Below are positions 754-64,000 of a DNA stretch of 64,000 nucleotides, piece by piece. How positions within the stretch are numbered: position 1 is the first letter of the stretch; each line of letters opens with the position of its first letter. The DNA comes from Bryobacteraceae bacterium. Lineage in GTDB: Bacteria > Acidobacteriota > Terriglobia > Bryobacterales > Bryobacteraceae. Location: NCBI GenBank assembly GCA_025056865.1, contig JANWVO010000015.1:1-64000 (forward strand), in the 5' to 3' direction. The notes under the pieces were generated by a model. The model was not told the origin of the DNA, did not search any database, and saw only the letters and a program-made list of their open reading frames with translations. The translations under genes were made by a program, and so were the position numbers.

Positions 754-3700
754 TCAGCCGCCTACGCCGCTATCGGACAGGCAGGCCGGATCGAGGCCGA
801 TCGTCCCCTCCAGGCTCCGCAGATACCCGGGCGAGCGCACCCATTCCAGCTTCGCCCTTGCGGCAGCGATCCGCTCCGGCAGCCGCAGCCCCGAATAAAG
901 CCCTGCCGGATCGGGCTGCCCCGCCGCGGCCTCCAGCGTGCGCACATGCCGCTCCCACAGCGAGGCCTGGCTGGCCTGGTAGGCCCGCAGCCGCTGCCTG
1001 TACCAGTCGCTGGCGAGCAGCGCCTCCCGCGTGAACATCGCGCGGATGGCCGGATCGTCCGCGCCGCGGCCCCCGTGGTGCCCGAAGGCCATGATGTGCA
1101 GCAGCGCGCGCACCGGCGGACACGCCATCCCCACGCTGCCGTCCTCGAAATATTGAAGCGCCACCCGGCGCTGGCTCTCCACGATCGCCTCCACCCCCTG
1201 CACGAACAGCTCCAGCCCCTGCGTCTCCGGCCGGAGCCATTCCTCGGGAAAAACCGCGTCCGGATTTTCGAAAATCCGGCCAAGAAAATGCTCCGCAAAT
1301 TGCCGGGTGATCCGGTAGCCCAGCCGGCTGGCGAGGATTTTCCGCCCCTGGAATTCGAAATCCTCCAGCTTTTCCAGATAGCCGTTTTCGATCAGGAACC
1401 GCGGGTCCCTCTCGCCCACCTTCATCCGGCACCACAGCTCCGGCACCAGCATGCTCAGGTCGTGGTCCACCCGGTAGTGCGGCCCCACGGATCCGGCCAC
1501 GCTCGTGTAGCCTTCATAGCCTGTCAGGATGGCCGACACGAGCGCGTTGTTGACGTCCACCACCGGCGGCAGCGCGTTGAACGGCCCCTTGGTCAGCGCG
1601 CCTTCGCTGCCGAAGCCCGTCGTCGACGGCGACCGCCCCGTGAGGCTGCTGATGAAATCCATGAAAAGCTCCGGCAGTTCCTGGTAGTGGATGGGCCCGT
1701 AAACCGCCAGCGCCGGCAGGCCGATCTCCGGCTGCGGCGGGTTGGCGCGCCGTCCGGGAAGGACCGAATTCACGGGAAAATCGACGGGCCTGCCGGCTTC
1801 CAGCCCGCGGTCAAGCCGCGCGCAGATCTCCGCCAGATACGCCTCGCGCGGATTGGCGAGGTCCGGTCGCGGCTGCTGATAGCGGGGATTCTTGGTCGGC
1901 TTCCCGTCTACGATCCGCGGATTGGCCGAGCAGACGGCATAGCGCGGCTTCTCGCTCCGCAGGAAGTCCAGCAGCCGCCGCTTCATCGGCTCCGTGAAGC
2001 GGTCGAAGTGGACCACGTGATCCACGATCGCCTCCACCTGCTTCCGCGTCAGCGGCTCGAAATTGGACAGAAAAACGCCTGTGGAGGCGATATCGGCCTC
2101 CGCCTGCGGGTCCGCGCCCGGCTCGATGGCGTCGTCCGGGCGCTGGAACAGCAGCCTTTCGCAGTTATGCACCACCTTCACCGACGGGTGCTGCTCGCGG
2201 GGATCAAGCCCGGAGAACGCCCCCCGCGGCAGCGTCACGCTCGCCGTGATGTCATCCTCCACCTGGATCCGGTCCGCCGGGTAAAAATCCGGGCGCAGCT
2301 TGAAAATGCGCCACGATCCGTCCCTGTCGTAGCCCACCCGCAGGTAATTCGCCACCAGTTTCTGGTTGTCGAATTTCAGCTCGTGGCCCAGATGGCCGTT
2401 CACCATGTCGACGGTGAAATGCTCGCGCCAGCGCGGGCCCCACTCCGGCCGCCAGTAGCGCTTCACCGTGAACACAAGCTGGCGGATCGTCTGCGGCAGC
2501 GAGCGCAGCCAGGCGTTGTACTCGTCGGTGTATTCGGCCGAAGGCGTCAGCAGCTTGATCACCGATCCCAGGCTCCGCTCGAGGCTGAGAATCGGCCGCC
2601 GCGCCCGCGCCGGCGGCTGCGGGATCCGGTAAATGTTGGAGAAATCCATGGAAAGGATCTTCTCCACTTCGTCCATATCGGCGTGATAATCGCGGACAAA
2701 GACGGGCCCTTTCAGCAGCATTCCACTGATCGATTTCGAGATTTCGCTCTTGCCCGCGCCGGAAACCGTGCATGGCTTGTGGATCAGCGTCCCGTCGGCC
2801 CGCGTGCCCACCAGCCGCCACATCGAGCCGCTCATCTGCTTCTCCAGCCGCAGCCGGTAGCCTGACGGCAGCACGTAGACGTCGCCCGCGCGCAGCCGGA
2901 TCTTCTGCTCCGCCCCTTCGTGCCGCCAGCGGATCTCTCCAGCGCGCACGTCGAAAACGCTGTCTTCAGGCACGTAGAAGATCGACGGATGGTTCCGGTC
3001 CACTGCGTACCGCTCCGGCCGCACGTCGGCCCGGTCGCCCAGCAGCCGCATCGCCTCTTCGAACACCGCGCGCTTCAGCGGCACCGTCCGGTCTGCGATG
3101 AAGTCCTGTCCGAGAATGTAGGCCGGAAACAGCAGCGCGCCGCCGGCGTGCTCTTCCTCGGCCAGCCCGGTCAGGTTCGCCGAAAAGCTGATCTGCGTCT
3201 TGACTTCCTTCTTGCAGTAGCCGTAGTAGCTGTCGGCGATGATGGTCACCATCACGCCGCGCCGGTCCCGGCAGGTGACCTTGAAAGCGCCGCCGTTGTT
3301 GTAGCGCTCGCCCGGGTCGCGCCAGCACATCCCGTCGCGGCGCTGCCGCTCGGTGGCCTTGTCCCAGTGGGGCAGGCCGAGCTCCTTCTTCGGAATGCCC
3401 GCCAGATGCGGAGCAAGGATGATGCAGCCCGTGTGCCCCGTCCAGTGCAGGCAGTCCAGCGCGGCGTCGTTCTCCGGCAGGAACGGATCTCCCGCGTTGC
3501 CAAAGATGCCCTCGACGAAATCGAGGTTGCTCACCAGGCTGCCTGGCGCGAAGAAACGGATTTCCATGGTCTGCTGCTCGACGCCCGGCGCCTGCGGCAC
3601 CACCACCGGGCGCAGCAGCAGCGAGACCCAGGCATGCGCCTCGCGCTTCTGGCCCGCGGTGAAAGGCAGCCGCAGCACGTCCCGCGGCGGCTGGAAAGCG

Positions 3701-4245
3701 CGCTCGAGCAGCGCCGCGAAGGCCTGTTTCGGCACGGCGATCTTGTCCGCCGGCACGGGCAGCCCGCCTTCGGCGATGTGGAAGATGCCGTGCGTCGTGC
3801 GCCGGTCGCTGCGCGGATTGTGCAGCACGCCCTGCGCCACCCGGTAGGAGTCGAGATACGGTGCCGAAAAATGATCCCCCGTCCGCGGCAGGCTCATCAC
3901 GCGCGCCAGCCCCGCGCGGTCCAGCACGAACGTGTGCGCGGGCAGCCGGGGCGCCCCCTCGGGACGGACGTCGCCCAGATAGCTGTCAAGGAAACTCTGG
4001 ATGCGTTGGTCTGCCGGGCAGTACAGCCCTTCCAGCATCTGGTCGCGCACATGGTAGTTCTCAAGCAGCGGCCGCGCCAGCTCGACGAACGGCTCCCGGG
4101 CGCCTTCTTCGGCCGGGGGCTGCCCCAGCGCGATCAGCTTCAGGTTGATGTAACGGACAAGGTCGCGCTCGCGCTCCGCCTCGGAGACAGGCGCTGCGGC
4201 TTTCTGGGACACTTCCTGCATTGCGGTTCTGGGATGGGATTCCAT
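754..4245 (-). CDS. Very large protein, candidate PPi-type PEP carboxykinase
   Basis: A 1163-residue protein with no signal peptide or membrane segment, so probably cytosolic. A Gly-rich loop around residues 493-503 (VSGAGKSEISKS) resembles the kinase loop of PEP carboxykinases. Other conserved-looking blocks are GHTGCIILAPHLAGIPKK near 270, a YNNGGAFKVT and KKEVKTQISFSANL region near 315-360, and GSEGALTKGPFNALPP near 880. Length and architecture fit the pyrophosphate-dependent PEPCK family (about 1100-1150 residues, known from Entamoeba and Propionibacterium), which interconverts PEP and oxaloacetate using PPi/Pi. This is an inference from size and the loop; I could not align it. It lies downstream of the AI-2E-type permease on the same strand. 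An alternative ATG is at 4221. Confidence 0.5.
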   Translation of the reverse strand: MESHPRTAMQEVSQKAAAPVSEAERERDLVRYINLKLIALGQPPAEEGAREPFVELARPLLENYHVRDQMLEGLYCPADQRIQSFLDSYLGDVRPEGAPRLPAHTFVLDRAGLARVMSLPRTGDHFSAPYLDSYRVAQGVLHNPRSDRRTTHGIFHIAEGGLPVPADKIAVPKQAFAALLERAFQPPRDVLRLPFTAGQKREAHAWVSLLLRPVVVPQAPGVEQQTMEIRFFAPGSLVSNLDFVEGIFGNAGDPFLPENDAALDCLHWTGHTGCIILAPHLAGIPKKELGLPHWDKATERQRRDGMCWRDPGERYNNGGAFKVTCRDRRGVMVTIIADSYYGYCKKEVKTQISFSANLTGLAEEEHAGGALLFPAYILGQDFIADRTVPLKRAVFEEAMRLLGDRADVRPERYAVDRNHPSIFYVPEDSVFDVRAGEIRWRHEGAEQKIRLRAGDVYVLPSGYRLRLEKQMSGSMWRLVGTRADGTLIHKPCTVSGAGKSEISKSISGMLLKGPVFVRDYHADMDEVEKILSMDFSNIYRIPQPPARARRPILSLERSLGSVIKLLTPSAEYTDEYNAWLRSLPQTIRQLVFTVKRYWRPEWGPRWREHFTVDMVNGHLGHELKFDNQKLVANYLRVGYDRDGSWRIFKLRPDFYPADRIQVEDDITASVTLPRGAFSGLDPREQHPSVKVVHNCERLLFQRPDDAIEPGADPQAEADIASTGVFLSNFEPLTRKQVEAIVDHVVHFDRFTEPMKRRLLDFLRSEKPRYAVCSANPRIVDGKPTKNPRYQQPRPDLANPREAYLAEICARLDRGLEAGRPVDFPVNSVLPGRRANPPQPEIGLPALAVYGPIHYQELPELFMDFISSLTGRSPSTTGFGSEGALTKGPFNALPPVVDVNNALVSAILTGYEGYTSVAGSVGPHYRVDHDLSMLVPELWCRMKVGERDPRFLIENGYLEKLEDFEFQGRKILASRLGYRITRQFAEHFLGRIFENPDAVFPEEWLRPETQGLELFVQGVEAIVESQRRVALQYFEDGSVGMACPPVRALLHIMAFGHHGGRGADDPAIRAMFTREALLASDWYRQRLRAYQASQASLWERHVRTLEAAAGQPDPAGLYSGLRLPERIAAARAKLEWVRSPGYLRSLEGTIGLDPACLSDSGVGG

Positions 4246-4320
4246 GCTGATGGGATCAGGCCACGGGTGGCGTCTGGCTCCGCCCGTTTCATTCAGGGTA
4301 ACAGGGCGCGGTGTGGCGCT

Positions 4321-5466
4321 TCAGGTGCCGAGGATCTGTCCATACGGCCTCAGCGAAGGAATGCTGTCGAAGGCCGCCTTTAGCCCCGCCGTGATGGGAA
4401 TCGCCAGAAACAGCCCTGCCGCTCCCCACAGCAGATACCACAGCATCAGCGCGATCGTGACCACCAGCGGGTTCAGGTGCACGCGCGCACCCACCAGCTT
4501 CGGATACAGCAGGTTCAGCGCGATCAGATGGAAGACTGCCGTCGTCGCGCCGATTACCAGATAGGCGGGCAGGGTGTTGTAGATGGGCAGCGCCGCCACC
4601 AGCGGCGGAATCAGCGCCAGCGGCAGCCCCAGGTAGGGCACGAGGCTCAGGAATCCGCTCAGCGGTCCCACGACCTGCCAGTAGGGCAGCTTCACGAACC
4701 AGAAAAAGCTCGCGCTCGCCACCGACAGCAGCACGCCCAGAATGAAATTGCCCACCAGATAGGCCCGGGCGACCTGCGCGATCCCGTTCCAGGCCTGAAG
4801 CATGCTCTGCCGCTCCCGCTCTCCCGGAAGCGCGTTGAGCACTGCCCGCAGGATGTGGTCGCGCCAGCTCAGCATGAAGTAAACGAGGAACGGCACGAAC
4901 GAAGCCATCAGCGCCGCGTCCGTGTACGCAGCCAGCCGCTGATAGATCGCGTTCACCAGTTGCCCTTCTTCCCTCTGGATCCGTACCTCCTGCACCTGCG
5001 CGGGAGGCGGAGCCGCCGGCGCCGCCTTTCTGCGGGCTTTCGGCTGCGCCGGTGCCGGCTCGGTCTGCGGCGGGGCCTCCCTCAGCCGCTTGGGCACGAT
5101 GATCTCCCGCGCCGTCTTCTCCACTTCCTCGATCTGCTGCACCGCGGCGTCCACCAGCTCTGCAATGCGCCGGCTGTAGTTCGGCAGGTCCTCCCACAGC
5201 CCCTGCACCTGAAGCCACAGCCCCAGCCCCAGCAGATAAACGACAGCCAGCATCAGCGCGCAGGCCAGGAAGCTGGCCAGCCCCCGCGGCGCGCGCAGCC
5301 GCATCAGCCCGTTCACCACCGGCTCCAGCAGAAATGCCAGCAGCACCGCGCTCACGAACGTGATAAAAAACACCCGGCCGAAATACAGAATCGCCGTGAT
5401 CAGCAGAAGGGAAGCCAGCACGCTCGCGATGCGCGCCGGACGGTCAGGGGCAGCCGCGCTCTCCAT
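4321..5466 (-). CDS. AI-2E family transporter (PerM/DUF20-like permease)
   Basis: A 381-residue inner-membrane protein of the AI-2E exporter/PerM family. N-terminal helices (residues 12-45 and 60-90), a soluble middle region, and a C-terminal bundle including GPLSGFLSLVPYLGLPLALIP and GAAGLFLAIPITAGLK are typical of the family. Family members export small molecules or ions, and the AI-2 substrate is not established for most. A Pro/Ala/Lys-rich stretch around residues 150-185 enlarges the soluble loop compared with usual homologues. The start codon abuts the stop codon of the upstream methyltransferase gene with no gap, so the two are probably translationally coupled. Confidence 0.85.
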   Translation of the reverse strand: MESAAAPDRPARIASVLASLLLITAILYFGRVFFITFVSAVLLAFLLEPVVNGLMRLRAPRGLASFLACALMLAVVYLLGLGLWLQVQGLWEDLPNYSRRIAELVDAAVQQIEEVEKTAREIIVPKRLREAPPQTEPAPAQPKARRKAAPAAPPPAQVQEVRIQREEGQLVNAIYQRLAAYTDAALMASFVPFLVYFMLSWRDHILRAVLNALPGERERQSMLQAWNGIAQVARAYLVGNFILGVLLSVASASFFWFVKLPYWQVVGPLSGFLSLVPYLGLPLALIPPLVAALPIYNTLPAYLVIGATTAVFHLIALNLLYPKLVGARVHLNPLVVTIALMLWYLLWGAAGLFLAIPITAGLKAAFDSIPSLRPYGQILGT

Positions 5467-6060
5467 CTATCGCCGCACGATCACTTCCTGCAGGTTCTCC
5501 CGCGTGAGGTAGAACTTCAGGGAATCGTACCTCTGGAAAAAACGCTCGATCATCCGTGTCGTGAAAGGTCGCAGCGGGCGCGGCGGTCCCGCGGAGGCCA
5601 GCAGCAGATGCCTTGCATCGGCCACGCGGCAGGAAAGCGGCGAAACCGAGGCCGTCTGTTCCGGATGGAAAAGCGCAAGCAGCAGGCCGCCGGGAGCCAT
5701 CACCCGGTGGATGCGCTCCTGAAGCGCCACGGCAGCCGCCTCCGTCAGGAACTGAAACCGGTCCCAGCAAAGCGTCACGTCCACCGAGGAGGGCGGGAAA
5801 TCCAGGCAGTCGGCGGGCAGCCTTCCATCCTCGGCGCCCTGTCCCAGCGTGTGCAGCACGTCCTCTGCATAGAGCCGATGGCCCAGCCCGGTCACGTACT
5901 CGATCGTGCTCTGGCAGGCGCCGCCCAGGTCGACCACCTGCCCTCCGGTGAAACTGCCCAGATACTCGCTCACCTGTTCCAGGGCGTAGGAACGCCTGCC
6001 CGCTGCGGGGCCGCCGCCCGCAGGGCCGGTGGCCGACCTGGGCAGCGGCTCCGTCTTCAT
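5467..6060 (-). CDS. SAM-dependent methyltransferase-like protein
   Basis: A 197-residue protein resembling class I methyltransferases: GGQVVDLGGAC near residues 39-49 corresponds to motif I, followed by DVTLCWDRFQFL (motif IV region) and HRVMAPGGLLLALFH (motif V/VI). The substrate is unknown. Its start overlaps the stop of the bactofilin gene by 4 bp (ATGA), and its stop directly abuts the permease start, so it sits in the middle of a tight three-gene unit. The C-terminal third (FTTRMIERFFQRYDSLKFYLTRENLQEV) lacks recognisable motifs. A link to the cell envelope is suggested only by context. Confidence 0.65.
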   Translation of the reverse strand: MKTEPLPRSATGPAGGGPAAGRRSYALEQVSEYLGSFTGGQVVDLGGACQSTIEYVTGLGHRLYAEDVLHTLGQGAEDGRLPADCLDFPPSSVDVTLCWDRFQFLTEAAAVALQERIHRVMAPGGLLLALFHPEQTASVSPLSCRVADARHLLLASAGPPRPLRPFTTRMIERFFQRYDSLKFYLTRENLQEVIVRR

Positions 6061-58399: not shown

Positions 58400-60271
58400 T
58401 CACTCCTGCATCGGCCCGGCCACGTCCGGCAGCCGGCAGATCGGATCCGGCCTCCAGGATCGGCCCGCTCCATGCCCCGGCAAAGCCCGGGGCTTGCCGT
58501 TCCGCCCGGGCGTCGTCTTCGGCAGCCATTCCACCCTCTCCCCGCCCGCCGAACCGTGCCGCAGATCCGGAGCCGTCGATCCCCGCAGCTCGCCCAACGG
58601 GCTTCCCGCCCCATCCCCGGCCCCCGCCAGCTCCAGTCCGCCGTCGCGGCCCCCCGCCGCGGCCGCGCCAGTCCGGTCGGCCACGGGGCGGGGCAGCGCC
58701 CGCGCCGTCTCCGCCAGCGGCTCGCCCGCGCCGCAGCCTGTCAACTCCCGCCAGACGCCCGGCGGCAGGCCGACACAATCCTCGGCTGCCGCTTCGCCGC
58801 ACTCCCACGGCTCGGCCCCCTCCCGCAGACCCGCCAGTCCCCCAACCCCCGCAGCCGCCGCAAACGCAAAGGCCTGCGGCTGCGGGCGAAGACTCTCCAG
58901 CGACGGATAGTAGTGTTCCGTCTTCAGCCACCGCAACGGCTCCCCCGTCCACTTCGACCGCAGGTACTGCCACGCCGCGCCCAGCGAAGCCGCTGCGTTG
59001 ATTGCATTGCCCCACACCATCCGCACCGGCACGCCCAGCGCGAACATCCACCCGTAGATCCGCGCCGAACACCACATCCTCGCTGCCATGCGCTCCGCAA
59101 ACAGCGCCAGATTGCAGGCCAGCAGCGCCGCCAGCCAGGGCTCTGCGCCCAGCACCGCGCCAGCCCGCCATTCCGTGCCCGTCAGCCGCGCCACCGCCCA
59201 CTCCGCGGCACAGGCCAGAAACAGCAGGTTGCTCGCCAGCCCGATCCAGCTCCCCCACAGCCCTTTCCGGTCCCTCCAGAAAAACCACGCCTGTACGGCC
59301 CGCCGCGGCAGCCCGCGCCCCCACCCATGCCGCTCCCAGGCCTGAAGGCCGTTGCCCGTCATCCACCGCGTGCGCTGCCGCACGGCGGCGCGCCACCGCC
59401 GTGGAAAATACTCCCGCGTCGCCGTCGCCTCCATCCCCGCGCCCTCCACCGGCAGCACCATCTGTCGGCAGCCCAGCCGATAGAGCCGCAGCCCGTTGTC
59501 GTAGTCCTCGGTCAGGCACAGCGGGTCGAAGATGCGGTTCGACTCGCTCTCCGCCAGCCGGTCCAGCTCCTCGCGCCGGAATGCCGTCCCCACCCCGCAG
59601 CCCGGCAGAAACCCGCCCAGCCATACGCGCGCCGGCAGGTCCTTCGTCTGGCTCTCGGCGAAATCGTCGCAGTAGACGCCGTGCGTCAGCTCCCCCGGCG
59701 GCGTCGGCAGCGCCAGCACCGGCTCCTGCACCATGCCCGCCGCCTCCGTCCAGCGGTTGTAGCGGGCCAACGAGTCCGGATGAATCACGTCCTCGGCGTC
59801 ATGGACGGCGATGATCTCGGCGCGCTGCCCCGTTTGCAGCTCGTGCTCGATCACCCTCTGGTACACCCAGTTCAGGCAGTCGGCCTTCGACGTCGGCCCT
59901 TCGTGCGGCACCTCCGCCACATGCACCCGCCCGTCGCGCTCCGCCACCCGCCGCACCGCCTCCACCGTATCCTCGTCGTTCGGATACACCCCCACGAAGA
60001 ACTCGTAATTGCGGTAGCGGATCGACTCCAGGTTGTACTCCAGCATCCGCTCGATCACGGCCGCTTCCCGCCACAGCGGCACGAGCACCGCAATCCGCTT
60101 CTCCCGCGCCGGCTCCGGCGGCGCCTGCTTCTGCCTCCTCCGCAGCACCAGCCACGCCGCGTCCAGCGCGAGGTCGTCCAGCCCGCTGATCAGTATGTAC
60201 ACTGCCAGCGCCCCAGCCACCGCAACCCCGTACGCCGCCAGCCACTCCTGCCACAGCCTCAACACGTCCAC
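58400..60271 (-). CDS. Membrane-bound GT2 glycosyltransferase (cellulose-synthase/NfrB-like)
   Basis: About 623 residues from the GTG at 60271 (start uncertain; in-frame ATG at 60349). A helix (YGVAVAGALAVYILISGL) precedes the GT-A domain: IAVLVPLWREAAVIERMLEYNL, AEIIAVHDAEDVIHPDSL (acidic metal site), LPGCGVGTAFRREEL, FDPLCLTEDYDNGLRLYRLG (TED) and AAVRQRTRWMTGNGLQAW (RxxRW). Several helices follow to about residue 470. The last 120 residues are Gly/Ala/Arg-rich and probably disordered. WLKTEHYYPSLESL resembles NfrB-type proteins. It probably polymerises or secretes an exopolysaccharide. Confidence 0.78.
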   Translation of the reverse strand: MDVLRLWQEWLAAYGVAVAGALAVYILISGLDDLALDAAWLVLRRRQKQAPPEPAREKRIAVLVPLWREAAVIERMLEYNLESIRYRNYEFFVGVYPNDEDTVEAVRRVAERDGRVHVAEVPHEGPTSKADCLNWVYQRVIEHELQTGQRAEIIAVHDAEDVIHPDSLARYNRWTEAAGMVQEPVLALPTPPGELTHGVYCDDFAESQTKDLPARVWLGGFLPGCGVGTAFRREELDRLAESESNRIFDPLCLTEDYDNGLRLYRLGCRQMVLPVEGAGMEATATREYFPRRWRAAVRQRTRWMTGNGLQAWERHGWGRGLPRRAVQAWFFWRDRKGLWGSWIGLASNLLFLACAAEWAVARLTGTEWRAGAVLGAEPWLAALLACNLALFAERMAARMWCSARIYGWMFALGVPVRMVWGNAINAAASLGAAWQYLRSKWTGEPLRWLKTEHYYPSLESLRPQPQAFAFAAAAGVGGLAGLREGAEPWECGEAAAEDCVGLPPGVWRELTGCGAGEPLAETARALPRPVADRTGAAAAGGRDGGLELAGAGDGAGSPLGELRGSTAPDLRHGSAGGERVEWLPKTTPGRNGKPRALPGHGAGRSWRPDPICRLPDVAGPMQE

Positions 60272-60319
60272 GAAAATTGGTAGCCGCCGCGCGCCGAATC
60301 TCTCACCCCCCTCTGCGTT

Positions 60320-60349
60320 TTGCCTTTTCCCTCTGCGCCGTGCTATCAT
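60320..60349 (+). promoter_or_regulatory. his operon promoter, short leader
   Basis: TTGCCT (60320-60325), an 18-bp gap, TATCAT (60344-60349). The ATG of the leader peptide lies 9 nt further on, so the leader peptide is read from a nearly leaderless transcript. Confidence 0.5.
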
Positions 60350-60358
60350 CACGGTTTC

Positions 60359-60436
60359 ATGGCAACGGCCGCGAACGGCTTCCCTGTCGCCCGCCACCAC
60401 CATCACCACCCGATGGGCGGGCGCAGCCTGTTCTGA
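60359..60436 (+). CDS. hisL: Histidine leader peptide (25 aa)
   Basis: A 25-codon frame encoding MATAANGFPVAR, five consecutive His codons (60395-60409), PMGGRSLF and TGA. It precedes a terminator hairpin and hisI. Five tandem His codons before the his genes is the hallmark of ribosome-mediated transcription attenuation. When charged His-tRNA is scarce, the ribosome stalls at the run and allows the antiterminator to form. The peptide itself needs no further function. Confidence 0.88.
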   Translation: MATAANGFPVARHHHHHPMGGRSLF

Positions 60437-60471
60437 GCCGTGAGCCGGAACCGGTTCTACTGACGCCCGCC
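60416..60471 (+). promoter_or_regulatory. his antiterminator pairing
   Basis: GGCGGGCG (60416-60423) is complementary over 8 bp to CGCCCGCC (60464-60471), the 5' arm of the terminator. A ribosome stalled on the His codons leaves the first segment free; one that reaches the stop codon (60434-60436) covers it. Confidence 0.75.
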
Positions 60472-60500
60472 GGCAGCGCCGGCGGGCTGTTGCTTTTTCT
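60465..60500 (+). terminator. his attenuator terminator
   Basis: GCCCGCCGGC-AGC-GCCGGCGGGC is a perfect 10-bp stem with a 3-nt loop, followed by a T-rich tract (TGTTGCTTTTTCT). It lies between the leader peptide and hisI and is the intrinsic terminator of the attenuator. Confidence 0.85.
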
Positions 60501-60531
60501 GACGGTGCATTCTCGGGAGGCAGGTCACAGC

Positions 60532-60900
60532 ATGGATCTCGATTTCGGCAAGTCCGGCGGGCTGCTGCCCGCCATCGTCCAGGATTGGCGCGATGGCCGC
60601 GTCCTCATGGTCGGCTTCATGAATGACGAGGCCTTCCGCAGGACCGTCGACACCGGCTTCGTCACCTTCTTCAGCCGCAGCCGCAACCGCCTCTGGACCA
60701 AAGGCGAGTCCAGCGGCCACCGCCTTGTCGTCAAGGCCATCCAGACCGACTGCGACCAGGACGCCATCCTCCTTCAGGTCGAGGCCCTTGGCCCCGGCGT
60801 CTGCCACAACGGCTACCGGTCCTGCTTCTACCGCACCCTCGACAACGGCGCCTGGCGCGTCACCGAACCGCAGACCTACGACCCCGGAGAAGTGTACTGA
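60532..60900 (+). CDS. hisI: Phosphoribosyl-AMP cyclohydrolase
   Basis: A 122-residue enzyme. [60 protein letters not shown] (metal-binding Cys/Asp) and [13 protein letters not shown] (second Cys/His site) are HisI signatures. It opens the purine ring of phosphoribosyl-AMP in histidine synthesis. It is the separate cyclohydrolase, with no HisE domain. GGGAGG lies upstream of the ATG. It is the first structural gene behind the attenuator. Confidence 0.93.
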
Positions 60901-60905
60901 TCCCC

Positions 60906-61775
60906 ATGAAGCTCAAGCTCGGCATCCCCAAAGGCTCGCTCGAAAACGCCACCATCGATCTGTTCCGCCGCGCCGGCTTCCAGATCACCGCCTCGTCCCG
61001 TTCCTACTTTCCCTCCATCGACGATCCCGAAATCGAGTGCATGATGATCCGCGCCCAGGAGATGGCCCGCTACGTCGAGGACGGCTTCCTCGACGCCGGC
61101 CTCACCGGCCGCGATTGGGTCCTCGAGAACGAAGCCGACGTCGTCACCGTCGCCGACCTCATCTACGCCCGCCAGAGCTTCGGCAAGGTCCGCTGGGTGC
61201 TTGCCGTCCCCGAGTCCTCCCCCGTCCAGAGCGTGAAGGATCTGGAAGGCAGGATCATCGCTACCGAGCTGGTCGGCGCCACCCGCCGCTACCTGGCGCA
61301 GCACGGCGTCACCGCCAAGGTCGAATTCAGTTGGGGCGCCACCGAGGTCAAGCCGCCCCACCTCGCCGACGCCATCGTCGAGGTCACCGAAACAGGCTCC
61401 TCCCTGCGCGCCAACAAGCTCCGCATCGTCGACGTCGTCATGGAGTCCAACACGCAGCTCATCGCCAACCGCCAGGCGTGGGCCGATCCGTGGAAGCGCC
61501 GCAAGCTCGAAGACATCCGCCTGCTGCTCGAAGGAGCCATCAACGCCCTCGGCAAGGTCGGCCTCATGCTCAACGTCCACCGCGACAACCTCCCCGCCGT
61601 CCTCGCCGTCCTGCCGGCGCTGAAAAACCCCACCGTCAGCCCCCTGAGCGACGGTGAATGGCTCGCCGTCAACACCATCCTCGACGAGTCCACCGTCCGC
61701 CAGATCATCCCGCGCCTCAAGGAAGCCGGCGCCCAGGGCATCGTCGAATATCCCCTCAACAAGATCGTGATGTGA
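60906..61775 (+). CDS. hisG: ATP phosphoribosyltransferase, long form
   Basis: A 289-residue HisG of the long type, which carries its own C-terminal regulatory domain and needs no His[25 protein letters not shown] begins the catalytic domain, [18 protein letters not shown] and [19 protein letters not shown] bind PRPP/ATP, and [21 protein letters not shown] is the HisG signature (EVTETGSSL). Residues about 215-289 form the ferredoxin-like histidine-sensing domain. It catalyses the first step of the pathway. Confidence 0.94.
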
Positions 61776-61777
61776 CC

Positions 61778-63028
61778 ATGATCCGCATCCTCTCCGCCAA
61801 AGACGCCCCGCGCCTGCTCCGCCGCCGCGCCGCCCGTCTCGAAGAGGCCGAAGCCGTCGTCCGCCCCATCCTCGACGATGTCCGCCGCCGCGGCGACGCT
61901 GCCCTGCTCGAATACGCCCGCCGCTTCGACGGCTTCAACGGCCGCTCCGTCCTCGTGTCCCCCGCGGCGCTCGACAGCGCCGCCCGCCAGCTCAGCCCCG
62001 CCTTCCGCGCTGCCCTGCGCGTGAGCGGGAAAAACGTCGCTGCCTTCGCCCGCCTTCAGTTGCCCCGTCCCGGCCGCATCCAGCCCATGCCCGGCCTGCG
62101 CCTCGCCACCATCGTCCGCCCTCTGGATGCCGCCGCCGCCTACATCCCTTCCGGCCGCTATCCGCTGCCCTCCACCGTGGTGATGACCGTCGTGCCCGCG
62201 CGCGTCGCCGGCGTCGCCACCATCATGGTGTGCTCGCCCCGTCCCGTGCCGGAGATCTTCGGCGCGGCCCGGCTGCTTGGAGCCACCCACGTCTTCCAGA
62301 TGGGCGGAGCCCATGCCATCGCCGCCTTCGCTTACGGAACCAGAACCGTGCCGCGCGCCGACCGCATCGTCGGCCCCGGCAACATTTACGTCGCCGCCGC
62401 CAAGAAAATCCTCGCCGGCGAGACCGGCATCGACTTCATCGCCGGTCCCAGCGAAATCCTCCTCATCGCCGCCGACGGCGACCCGCGCCTGCTCGCCGCC
62501 GACATGCTCGCCCAGGCCGAGCATGACGACGACGCCAGCGCCATCCTCCTCACCCCCAGCCGCCCGCTTGCCGAGGCCGTCGCCGCCGAAATCCGCCGCC
62601 AGCTTGCCACGCTGCCCACCGCCGCCACCGCCCGCGTCTCGTTGCGCCGCAACTCGGCCATCCTGCTCGTCTCCAGCCTTGACGAAGCCGTCGAGCTCTC
62701 CAACCGCTTCGCCCCGGAGCATCTCTCCCTGCCGGACGACTCGCTTCTTGGGCGCGTCCGCCACGCCGGCAGCGTCTTCATCGGCCCGTGGAGCCCGGAA
62801 GCCGCCGGCGACTACGCCTCCGGCACCAACCACGTCCTGCCCACCGCCGGGGCCGCGCGGCTCCGCGGCGGCCTCTCCGCGGCGGACTTCGTCAAGGTCA
62901 TCAGCGTGCAGCACCTCAGCCGCGCCGCCCTGCGCCGCCTCGCTCCGGCCATCGCCACCCTCGCCCGCGCCGAAGGCCTCGAGGCCCACGCCCGCAGCGT
63001 CGAGGCGCGTTTCGGAAAGGAGCGCTGA
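61778..63028 (+). CDS. hisD: Histidinol dehydrogenase
   Basis: A 416-residue HisD, starting 2 bp after the hisG stop. AAYIPSGRYPLPSTVVMTVVPARVAGV, HVFQMGGAHAIAAFAYGTRTVPRADRIVGPGNIYVAAAKKILAG, DFIAGPSEILLIAADGD, AQAEHDDDASAILLTPS (zinc-binding His/Asp) and NRFAPEHLSL (catalytic Glu/His) are the HisD signatures. It oxidises histidinol to histidine with NAD. A natural length, with no truncation. Confidence 0.95.
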   Translation: MIRILSAKDAPRLLRRRAARLEEAEAVVRPILDDVRRRGDAALLEYARRFDGFNGRSVLVSPAALDSAARQLSPAFRAALRVSGKNVAAFARLQLPRPGRIQPMPGLRLATIVRPLDAAAAYIPSGRYPLPSTVVMTVVPARVAGVATIMVCSPRPVPEIFGAARLLGATHVFQMGGAHAIAAFAYGTRTVPRADRIVGPGNIYVAAAKKILAGETGIDFIAGPSEILLIAADGDPRLLAADMLAQAEHDDDASAILLTPSRPLAEAVAAEIRRQLATLPTAATARVSLRRNSAILLVSSLDEAVELSNRFAPEHLSLPDDSLLGRVRHAGSVFIGPWSPEAAGDYASGTNHVLPTAGAARLRGGLSAADFVKVISVQHLSRAALRRLAPAIATLARAEGLEAHARSVEARFGKER

Positions 63029-63034
63029 AGGCCC

Positions 63035-64000
63035 ATGCTCCGCCCCCGCCGCGCCATCCTCGAAATGGCCCCTTATTCGCCGCCCAGCTCGGGCAGGGAA
63101 GGGAAAATCCGCCTCGATTTCAACGAAAATACCCTCGGCTGTTCTCCCCGTGTTCTCGCCTTTCTCAGGGAAAAACTCAGCGAAGAACGGCTGTCCATTT
63201 ACCCCGAATACGAAGAGACCCGCCGCGCTTTAGGCCGGTATTTCTCCCTCCCCGAATCGCACTTCACCATCTGCAACGGCACCGACGAGGCCATCCAGGT
63301 CCTCGTCCACACCTATGTCGGCGAAGGCGACCGCGTCCTCGTCCTCCATCCCTCCTATGCGATGTACCGCTTCTACGCCCAGGTGGCCGGCGCCCGCGTC
63401 GCGGAGATCCCCTACCGCCCCGGCGACCTCGCCTTTCCGCTCGAAGAGCTTCTCGCCGCCATCGGCCCCGATGTCCGCGCCATCCTCGTCTCCAACCCCA
63501 ACAACCCCACCGGCTCCGCCATCGGGCTCGCCGAGATCGTCCGCATCCTCGAGGCCGCTCCCGCCGCCGCGGTGCTCATCGACGAGGCCTATTACGACTT
63601 CTATGGCGTCACCGCCCTCGGCCTCATCGAAAAATTCCCCAACCTTTTCGTCAGCCGCACCTTCTCCAAGGCCCATGGCCTTGCCGCGCTCCGCGTCGGC
63701 GTGCTCTTTTCCCGGGAGGAAAATGTCGCGTTTCTGCGCAAAGGGCAGTCGCCCTATTCGGTAAATGCGCTCGCCGCTCTCGCCGTCCGCGCTGCCGTCG
63801 AGGACCGCGAATATCTTGAAAATTACGTCCGCCAGGCGCTCGCCGCCCGCGGGCTGCTCTACGAAGGGTTCCGCCGCCGCGGCATCCGCTATTGGCCCTC
63901 GCAGGGCAACTTCGTGCTGTTCGAGGCCGGAGCCCGCGCCATCGAAATCCGCGACGCCCTGCGCGCCCGCGGCGTTCTCGTCCGCGACCGCTCCTACGAG
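63035..64000 (+). CDS. hisC: Histidinol-phosphate aminotransferase (runs off window)
   Basis: The first 322 codons of a PLP aminotransferase; the window ends before the stop. IRLDFNENTLGCSPRVLAFL and ERLSIYPEYEETRRALGRYF are HisC N-terminal motifs. ICNGTDEAIQVLVHTY, AILVSNPNNPTGSAIGLAEI and AVLIDEAYYDFYG bind PLP, and FVSRTFSKAHGLAALRVGVLF contains the Schiff-base Lys. It transfers an amino group to imidazole-acetol phosphate. It follows hisD by 6 bp in the his operon. GGAAAGGAG ends about 12 nt before the ATG. Confidence 0.92.
   Translation, partial: MLRPRRAILEMAPYSPPSSGREGKIRLDFNENTLGCSPRVLAFLREKLSEERLSIYPEYEETRRALGRYFSLPESHFTICNGTDEAIQVLVHTYVGEGDRVLVLHPSYAMYRFYAQVAGARVAEIPYRPGDLAFPLEELLAAIGPDVRAILVSNPNNPTGSAIGLAEIVRILEAAPAAAVLIDEAYYDFYGVTALGLIEKFPNLFVSRTFSKAHGLAALRVGVLFSREENVAFLRKGQSPYSVNALAALAVRAAVEDREYLENYVRQALAARGLLYEGFRRRGIRYWPSQGNFVLFEAGARAIEIRDALRARGVLVRDRSYE

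Follow-up and report, generated by a model that had tools for sequence, protein, structure and literature searches.

Is the his operon of this acidobacterium controlled by a leader peptide, and how would a ribosome reach a leader start codon that lies exactly 9 nt downstream of the -10 hexamer TATCAT? The enterobacterial his attenuator works on the same principle, and a leader of this kind had been proposed upstream of hisI in a first-pass annotation of the 64,000-nt stretch of Bryobacteraceae DNA analysed here (the window). From sequence comparison and folding models we conclude with considerable confidence that the his leader acts as a ribosome-mediated transcription attenuator whose leader peptide is very probably translated from a leaderless mRNA.

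A short ORF that carries several successive codons for the end product of the operon is located directly before the his genes, and an intrinsic terminator lies between this ORF and hisI, as is found in attenuators (Table 1). The annotated leader ORF of 25 codons with its five consecutive His codons can be read directly from the sequence, and the proposed antiterminator is a perfect 8-bp complement. The terminator stem proposed there is also perfect over its 10 bp, but the T-tract sits 6 nt away from this perfect stem rather than next to it; the predicted fold lengthens the stem by GAC/GUU toward the U-tract. Between positions 59800 and 61000, two terminator-like sites were counted against 0.3 expected, and one promoter-like site against 0.1 expected. 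Moreover, the 145-nt leader as a whole folded with a z-score of -3.98, and 0 of 200 shuffled sequences were as stable.

Table 1. Elements of the his leader and his genes in the window (window coordinates; empty cell, no entry)
Feature	Coordinates	Strand	Basis and remarks
Extended -10 promoter element TGC-TATCAT	60341..60349	+	Sequence; TG at 60341-60342, TATCAT at 60344-60349
Predicted transcription start	60356..60359	+	From -10 position: 7-10 nt past -10, 0-3 nt ahead of leader AUG
Leader-peptide ORF, predicted leaderless, 25 codons, MATAANGFPVARHHHHHPMGGRSLF	60359..60436	+	Sequence; stop codon 60434-60436
Run of five consecutive His codons in leader ORF	60395-60409	+	Sequence
Segment 1 (CGCCCGCC)	60388..60395	+	Complementary to segment 2; same eight letters as segment 3
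Segment 2 (GGCGGGCG)	60416..60423	+	Partner is segment 1 or segment 3
Segment 3 (CGCCCGCC), antiterminator partner of segment 2	60464..60471	+	Overlaps 5' arm of terminator
Terminator hairpin, 10 pairs, all G-C, 3-nt loop	60465..60487	+	Arms 60465-60474 / 60478-60487 (segment 4 is 60478-60487)
Terminator U-tract, five T	60494..60498	+	Sequence
Shine-Dalgarno-like GGGAGG of hisI	60515..60520	+	Sequence
hisI, phosphoribosyl-AMP cyclohydrolase	60532..60900	+	Pfam, NCBIfam
hisG, ATP phosphoribosyltransferase	60906..61775	+	Pfam, NCBIfam
hisD, histidinol dehydrogenase	61778..63028	+	Pfam, NCBIfam; start codon is our choice, longest ORF from 61658
hisC, histidinol-phosphate transaminase	63035..64000	+	NCBIfam; continues beyond window to contig position 64084

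The order hisI-hisG-hisD-hisC was borne out, the first three genes by both Pfam and NCBIfam, while hisC scored 272.9 bits against NCBIfam TIGR01141, slightly below the cut-off of 276.55, with that family nevertheless its best match. Downstream of hisC follow, in order, genes for a HAD hydrolase, hisB, hisH, hisF, hisA and a 3'-5' exonuclease; hisA is below its NCBIfam cut-off and its best match is still the hisA family, and no hisE was seen in the his operon stretch. The HAD-type hydrolase gene between hisC and hisB (contig position 63892-64761) has as its best NCBIfam match, below cut-off, a HAD family without known function, and the product may have histidinol-phosphate phosphatase activity. 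On the other side of the leader, a glycosyltransferase family 2 gene (58400-60283, minus strand) is divergent from it; with a start at 60283 it would begin 76 nt from the leader ATG, which would place its promoter back to back with that of the leader, and longer starts, up to 60409, are possible for this gene.

The annotated leader comprised two pairings, 2:3 and 3:4, both of which are present, but a third strand, segment 1, had been overlooked. In the predicted folds, segment 1 completes the textbook choice between 1:2, 2:3 and 3:4. In folds of the window sequence, the 1:2 hairpin that attenuators carry had an energy of -23.1 kcal/mol (z = -3.70) and the 3:4 hairpin one of -25.1 (z = -3.53), and the stretch with the 2:3 pairing reached -32.9 (z = -2.17, with 8 of 200 shuffles as stable). 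Segment 1 overlaps the first His codon; the His run thus overlaps segment 1 and then continues past it. That a 2:3 antiterminator excludes the 3:4 terminator is indicated by these folds and by covariation in a second family, and weakly by covariation in the own family of this genome.

The distance between promoter and start codon was then considered across relatives. Among 118 leaders of the own family, 113 have a -10 element, and their alignment reads TnTGnTATACT, five variable bases, TTT(C) and ATG. The spacing from -10 to ATG is 8, 9 or 10 nt in 61, 34 and 10 leaders, together 105 of 113; our choice of the best -10 favoured 9 nt in ties, and the count over all matches peaks alike (63, 34 and 10), while shuffled sequences gave about one -10 match per spacing. 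The extended -10 TG is found in 100 of the 113, and GGAG, GAGG or AGGA occurs at -18 to -4 of the leader ATG in 5 of the 118. The -35 box is not conserved in the family, and the -35-like TTGCCT of the window is weak. Outside the own family, 35 of 45 leaders have TTGAC at 35-40 nt upstream of their ATG (1.6% in shuffles), and 41 of 45 have TANNNT at 6-10 nt upstream, a count made without a shuffle control. Transcription is thus predicted to start at the leader AUG or at most about 3 nt from it in both groups, which leaves no room for a ribosome-binding site. As judged by promoter position only, the leader has the marks of a leaderless mRNA, that is, a start codon at or near the predicted transcription start and no Shine-Dalgarno sequence. 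Because of these -10-to-ATG and TTGAC-to-ATG spacings, the leader is very probably translated from a leaderless mRNA, and the earlier remark that the mRNA would be 'almost leaderless' gains strong support from promoter position (105/113 family leaders; 35/45 outside the family). An in-frame TTG at 60320 is upstream of the -10 element, so that a transcript made from this promoter would not contain it.

This genome seems to have many leaderless genes. An extended -10 is followed by an ATG at a distance of 7-9 nt at 21 sites (loci L212-L232), compared with 1 for the reversed pattern, and 17 of the 21 open ORFs of at least 68 aa. Zheng et al. 2011 gave 9.7-19.4% leaderless genes for three acidobacterial genomes, according to the available text (PMC3160421).

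Segments 1 to 4, together with the placement of the His run and of the stop codon, provide the geometry required for attenuation, and the working geometry outlined in the first-pass annotation holds. As the promoter position suggests, RNA polymerase would start no more than about 3 nt from the leader AUG, and a ribosome would presumably load straight onto the 5' end and trail the polymerase. When His-tRNA is ample, the ribosome would pass the His codons to the stop codon and cover segment 2, the 3:4 terminator would form, and transcription would end ahead of hisI. When His-tRNA is short, the ribosome would stall at the His codons and cover segment 1, leaving segment 2 free to pair with segment 3, so that the terminator would be blocked and the his operon transcribed. 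If the ribosome is absent, 1:2 and then 3:4 would form, and the default state would be off.

Conservation was measured in the own family, where hisI was matched in 140 of 150 sampled genomes. A first batch of 130 of these and a later 8 (one with only 171 nt) were counted, and G127 and G084, in which hisI is at the contig edge, were left out. A leader was defined as an ATG ORF of 8-50 codons with at least 4 His in eight codons. By this rule leaders precede hisI in 118 of 130 genomes of the first batch and 6 of the later 8, thus 124 of 138, and ORFs with three or more His codons in a row do so in 102 of 130. Applied to Ala, the next residue, the leader rule gave 16 of 130; for His it gave 0 of 130 when the reverse strand was read, and 2 of 2600 in shuffles. 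Failure of the His run or the pairing to be conserved in relatives had been named beforehand as the ground on which to give up the attenuator; the leaders in 124 of 138 family genomes, and those in other families described below, speak for keeping it.

No leader was found by the 4-His rule in 14 of the 138 genomes. Of the 12 such cases in the first batch, 7 keep an extended -10, with unchanged spacing, ahead of an ORF whose His codons are fewer or more dispersed (one such ORF opens with GTG), and in the other 5 no such arrangement of extended -10 and His ORF was seen. Two loci, L009 (G046) and L142 (G081), have an intact promoter and leaderless start before ORFs with only 2 and 1 His codons, and are possibly decayed attenuators.

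Promoters and terminators were counted in the 118 leaders of the first batch. A terminator-like hairpin follows the leader in 99 of 118, compared with 34 of 590 shuffles, with a T-rich tail past the stem in 99 of 118; by the hairpin rule used, 19 of 118 leaders have no terminator. GCCCGCC occurs past the leader stop in 108 of 118.

The same hairpin could act on translation instead, by blocking ribosome loading on hisI until stalling in the His leader relieves the block. The hairpin ends 15-19 nt upstream of hisI in 44 of 86 counted cases, a distance at which it could hinder initiation, and GGAG, GAGG or AGGA precedes hisI in only 25 of 118 (102 had a confirmed hisI start codon where one was expected). 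The T-rich tails in 99 of 118, however, are a mark of termination, and the Shine-Dalgarno-like stretch of the window starts 28 nt past the stem end, outside the terminator stem, although the full-leader fold places it in a separate hairpin. We therefore regard translational control in place of termination as unlikely, while the family hairpin near hisI might affect translation too.

It is less likely still, and indeed very improbable, that the upstream ORF mainly feeds reinitiating ribosomes to hisI, its amino-acid content being incidental. Leader genes have been proposed to raise expression of the next gene, and a peak in leader-gene distance has been reported in Acidobacteria among others, both according to the available text of PMC4833913, and many hisI genes have no clear Shine-Dalgarno sequence; but the codon bias is specific to His (118/130, against 16/130 for the next residue), and a terminator-like hairpin stands between ORF and hisI in 99 of 118. 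A function of the His-rich peptide itself, for instance in metal binding or in trans (a trans role is what the available text of PMC7298713 reports for the Sinorhizobium leader peptide peTrpL), is hardly credible, since the peptides, compared only upstream of his genes, diverge widely outside the His cluster and the RNA-pairing stretches. Ribosome-mediated transcription attenuation remains the reading we prefer.

The annotation had suggested covariation as a check of the pairings. In the second family (f2; family labels are anonymous), 27 leaders were aligned with the antiterminator written as 12 pairs, and 91.7% of the cells were paired, compared with 26.8-50.0% when one strand was slid by 1-3 columns. 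Three adjacent pairs alternate as UA/UG/CG, CG/UG/UA and GU/GC/AU. Eight cells changed on both sides, a number that 3 of 500 shuffles reached; the +1 slide has 7 such cells, and the covariation score was 0.172 versus 0.146 (6 of 500 shuffles). Pairs with a double change (2; 191/500 shuffles) and further pair types (10; 419/500 shuffles) were not beyond shuffles for this antiterminator. In the f2 terminator, 97.7% of cells were paired and 18 were double-changed (0/500 shuffles).

Within the own family, alignment A1 comprised 14 close leaders and A3 89 of the 118, the 29 left out being mostly more distant or longer. Here 79.1% of the 2:3 cells were paired and one central pair was mismatched in 54 of 89. 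The 2:3 pairing surpassed shuffled segment-2 regions at p <= 0.05 in 37 of 99 leaders and was stronger than an upstream control in 82 of 98; when set against segment 2 of other genomes, the own partner ranked within the top 5% for just 8 of 99, and in the 1:2 comparison for 24 of 99. Own-family covariation of 2:3 is weak because segment 3 is nearly invariant. Hence antiterminator and terminator covary in f2, but inside the own family the check has little power and lends 2:3 weak support. The attenuator structures are supported by prediction and covariation, and from them we infer regulation by histidine.

The leader is not confined to the own family. A hisI match was present in 162 of 247 genomes of the phylum, from which 60 loci of up to 20 kb were chosen to spread over 38 families, besides 31 shorter stretches (20 + 11), two of which, L371 and L372, were outside the analysis; these sets are samples, and related genomes in them are not independent. 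A locus was counted when a His-rich ATG ORF lay no more than 250 nt ahead of a match to hisI, hisG or hisD and in the same orientation, which was the case in 25 of 60 loci. Leaders were thereby confirmed in relatives beyond the own family, 13 of the 38 families sampled (f27 excluded) having such an ORF close to his genes. In f2, which belongs to the same class, a leader precedes hisI in 10 of 10 loci and in 17 of 17 shorter stretches, which makes 27 of 27 where hisI was matched; in one further f2 genome it was not. It also precedes hisI in loci of f14, f23, f32, f42, f44, f56, f60 and f72, hisG in f16, f20 and f65, and hisD in f4, and shorter stretches carried it in 3 of 3 for f23, 5 of 5 for f44 and 1 of 1 for f42. 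In f24 a His-rich ORF lies farther off, 972 nt upstream. No His-rich ORF was seen near the his genes in 34 of the 60 loci; in most of them another his gene comes before hisI, but hisI is ahead of hisG in L274, in L278 and in L275, the last of which is near a contig end. At locus L299 (G366, f27; 3348-5970), hisI is 68% identical to that of the window and the leader resembles those of the window family, and 0 of 3 other f27 stretches have a leader; L299 is possibly a misbinned contig.

A second candidate was found upstream of ilvB in the same genome (L343 1185-1400, G000:C15), where a GTG opens a 38-codon ORF containing SILVIVGIIRIGVAV. A promoter-like pair, TTGCAT and TACCCT separated by 17 nt, ends 6 nt before the GTG, and a strong terminator-like hairpin with TTTT lies past the stop codon. 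In 30 family loci, taken from the 61 matches listed (58 genomes), an ORF with at least 7 Ile, Leu or Val in 10 codons was present within 500 nt of ilvB in 22, whereas the reverse strand gave 0 of 30 and shuffling 31 of 600. In 16 of these 22, an in-frame start has TANNNT 6-9 nt ahead of it (19% in shuffles), and a terminator-like hairpin past the leader was found in only 6 of 22 (8/220 in shuffles). The ORF is thus a candidate for a second leaderless attenuator responding to Ile, Leu and Val. Nothing convincing as a leader peptide was seen before trpE, two leuA-like genes, pheA and hisS of the same genome.

The ilvB candidate slightly raises the odds of a broader proposal, which we advance tentatively and rate at somewhat below an even chance, namely that leaderless attenuation is a standard acidobacterial design, phylum-wide for his and at least in the own family for ilv, in which the transcript would begin with the start codon of the leader peptide, and the loading of 70S ribosomes on this codon at the nascent 5' end would set the timing between ribosome and polymerase. 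If so, promoter, start codon and sensor would form one compact unit, and the promoter-to-start spacing would be kept even where an extended -10 replaces the -35 box.

Rfam RF00514 (His_leader) had no match at gathering in the window, and in a search up to E 10 at 60200-60600 only two unrelated, chance-level Rfam matches appeared. His_leader matched in 0 of 41 genomes (this one and relatives), while the control search gave matches in E. coli and C. glutamicum, above cut-off in one of them. A T-box riboswitch or other Rfam element upstream of the his operon was set aside, since neither search gave a T-box match or any other Rfam match above chance level. The element could serve as the seed of a covariance model that is absent from Rfam. 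In the open-licence literature we found no published His attenuator in Acidobacteria; older comparative surveys may hold one. Each feature of the leader has a precedent, and it is their combination, with conservation across the phylum, that appears new.

The statement that such attenuators are best known from Proteobacteria omits the predicted His leader attenuators of Firmicutes, which the available text of PMC9413887 places in the Bacillus cereus group, Eubacteriales and Erysipelotrichales. These resemble the present leader in having an unbroken run of three to five His codons directly ahead of candidate attenuator structures that precede the his operon, and differ in belonging to another phylum; the word 'leaderless' is absent from the main text of that paper. 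For histidine operons of Actinobacteria, no conserved RNA element was found upstream, according to the available text of PMC1262725, and a later search for His leader peptides in that phylum is cited by PMC4833913. The leaderless start has its closest parallel in Sinorhizobium meliloti trpL, described in the available text of PMC7298713 as a classical attenuator whose transcript begins with the leader-peptide ATG, although it concerns tryptophan and an alphaproteobacterium. Amino-acid-rich leader peptides are likewise known from Streptomyces lividans, whose leuL, trpL and ilvL are described as transcribed leaderless (PMC8079986), and from the Cys-rich upstream ORFs of mycobacteria (PMC4633059); in the available text of these sources they concern other amino acids and another phylum, and some have no clear intrinsic terminator. 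With the E. coli and Salmonella his attenuator, as set out in the available text of PMC9413887, the present leader shares a leader peptide with His codons, a choice between antiterminator and terminator hairpins, and a his operon downstream. It differs from that attenuator in being an acidobacterial element without a match to Rfam His_leader, with a plain 1:2/2:3/3:4 layout, a predicted leaderless start, and hisI as the first gene of the operon.
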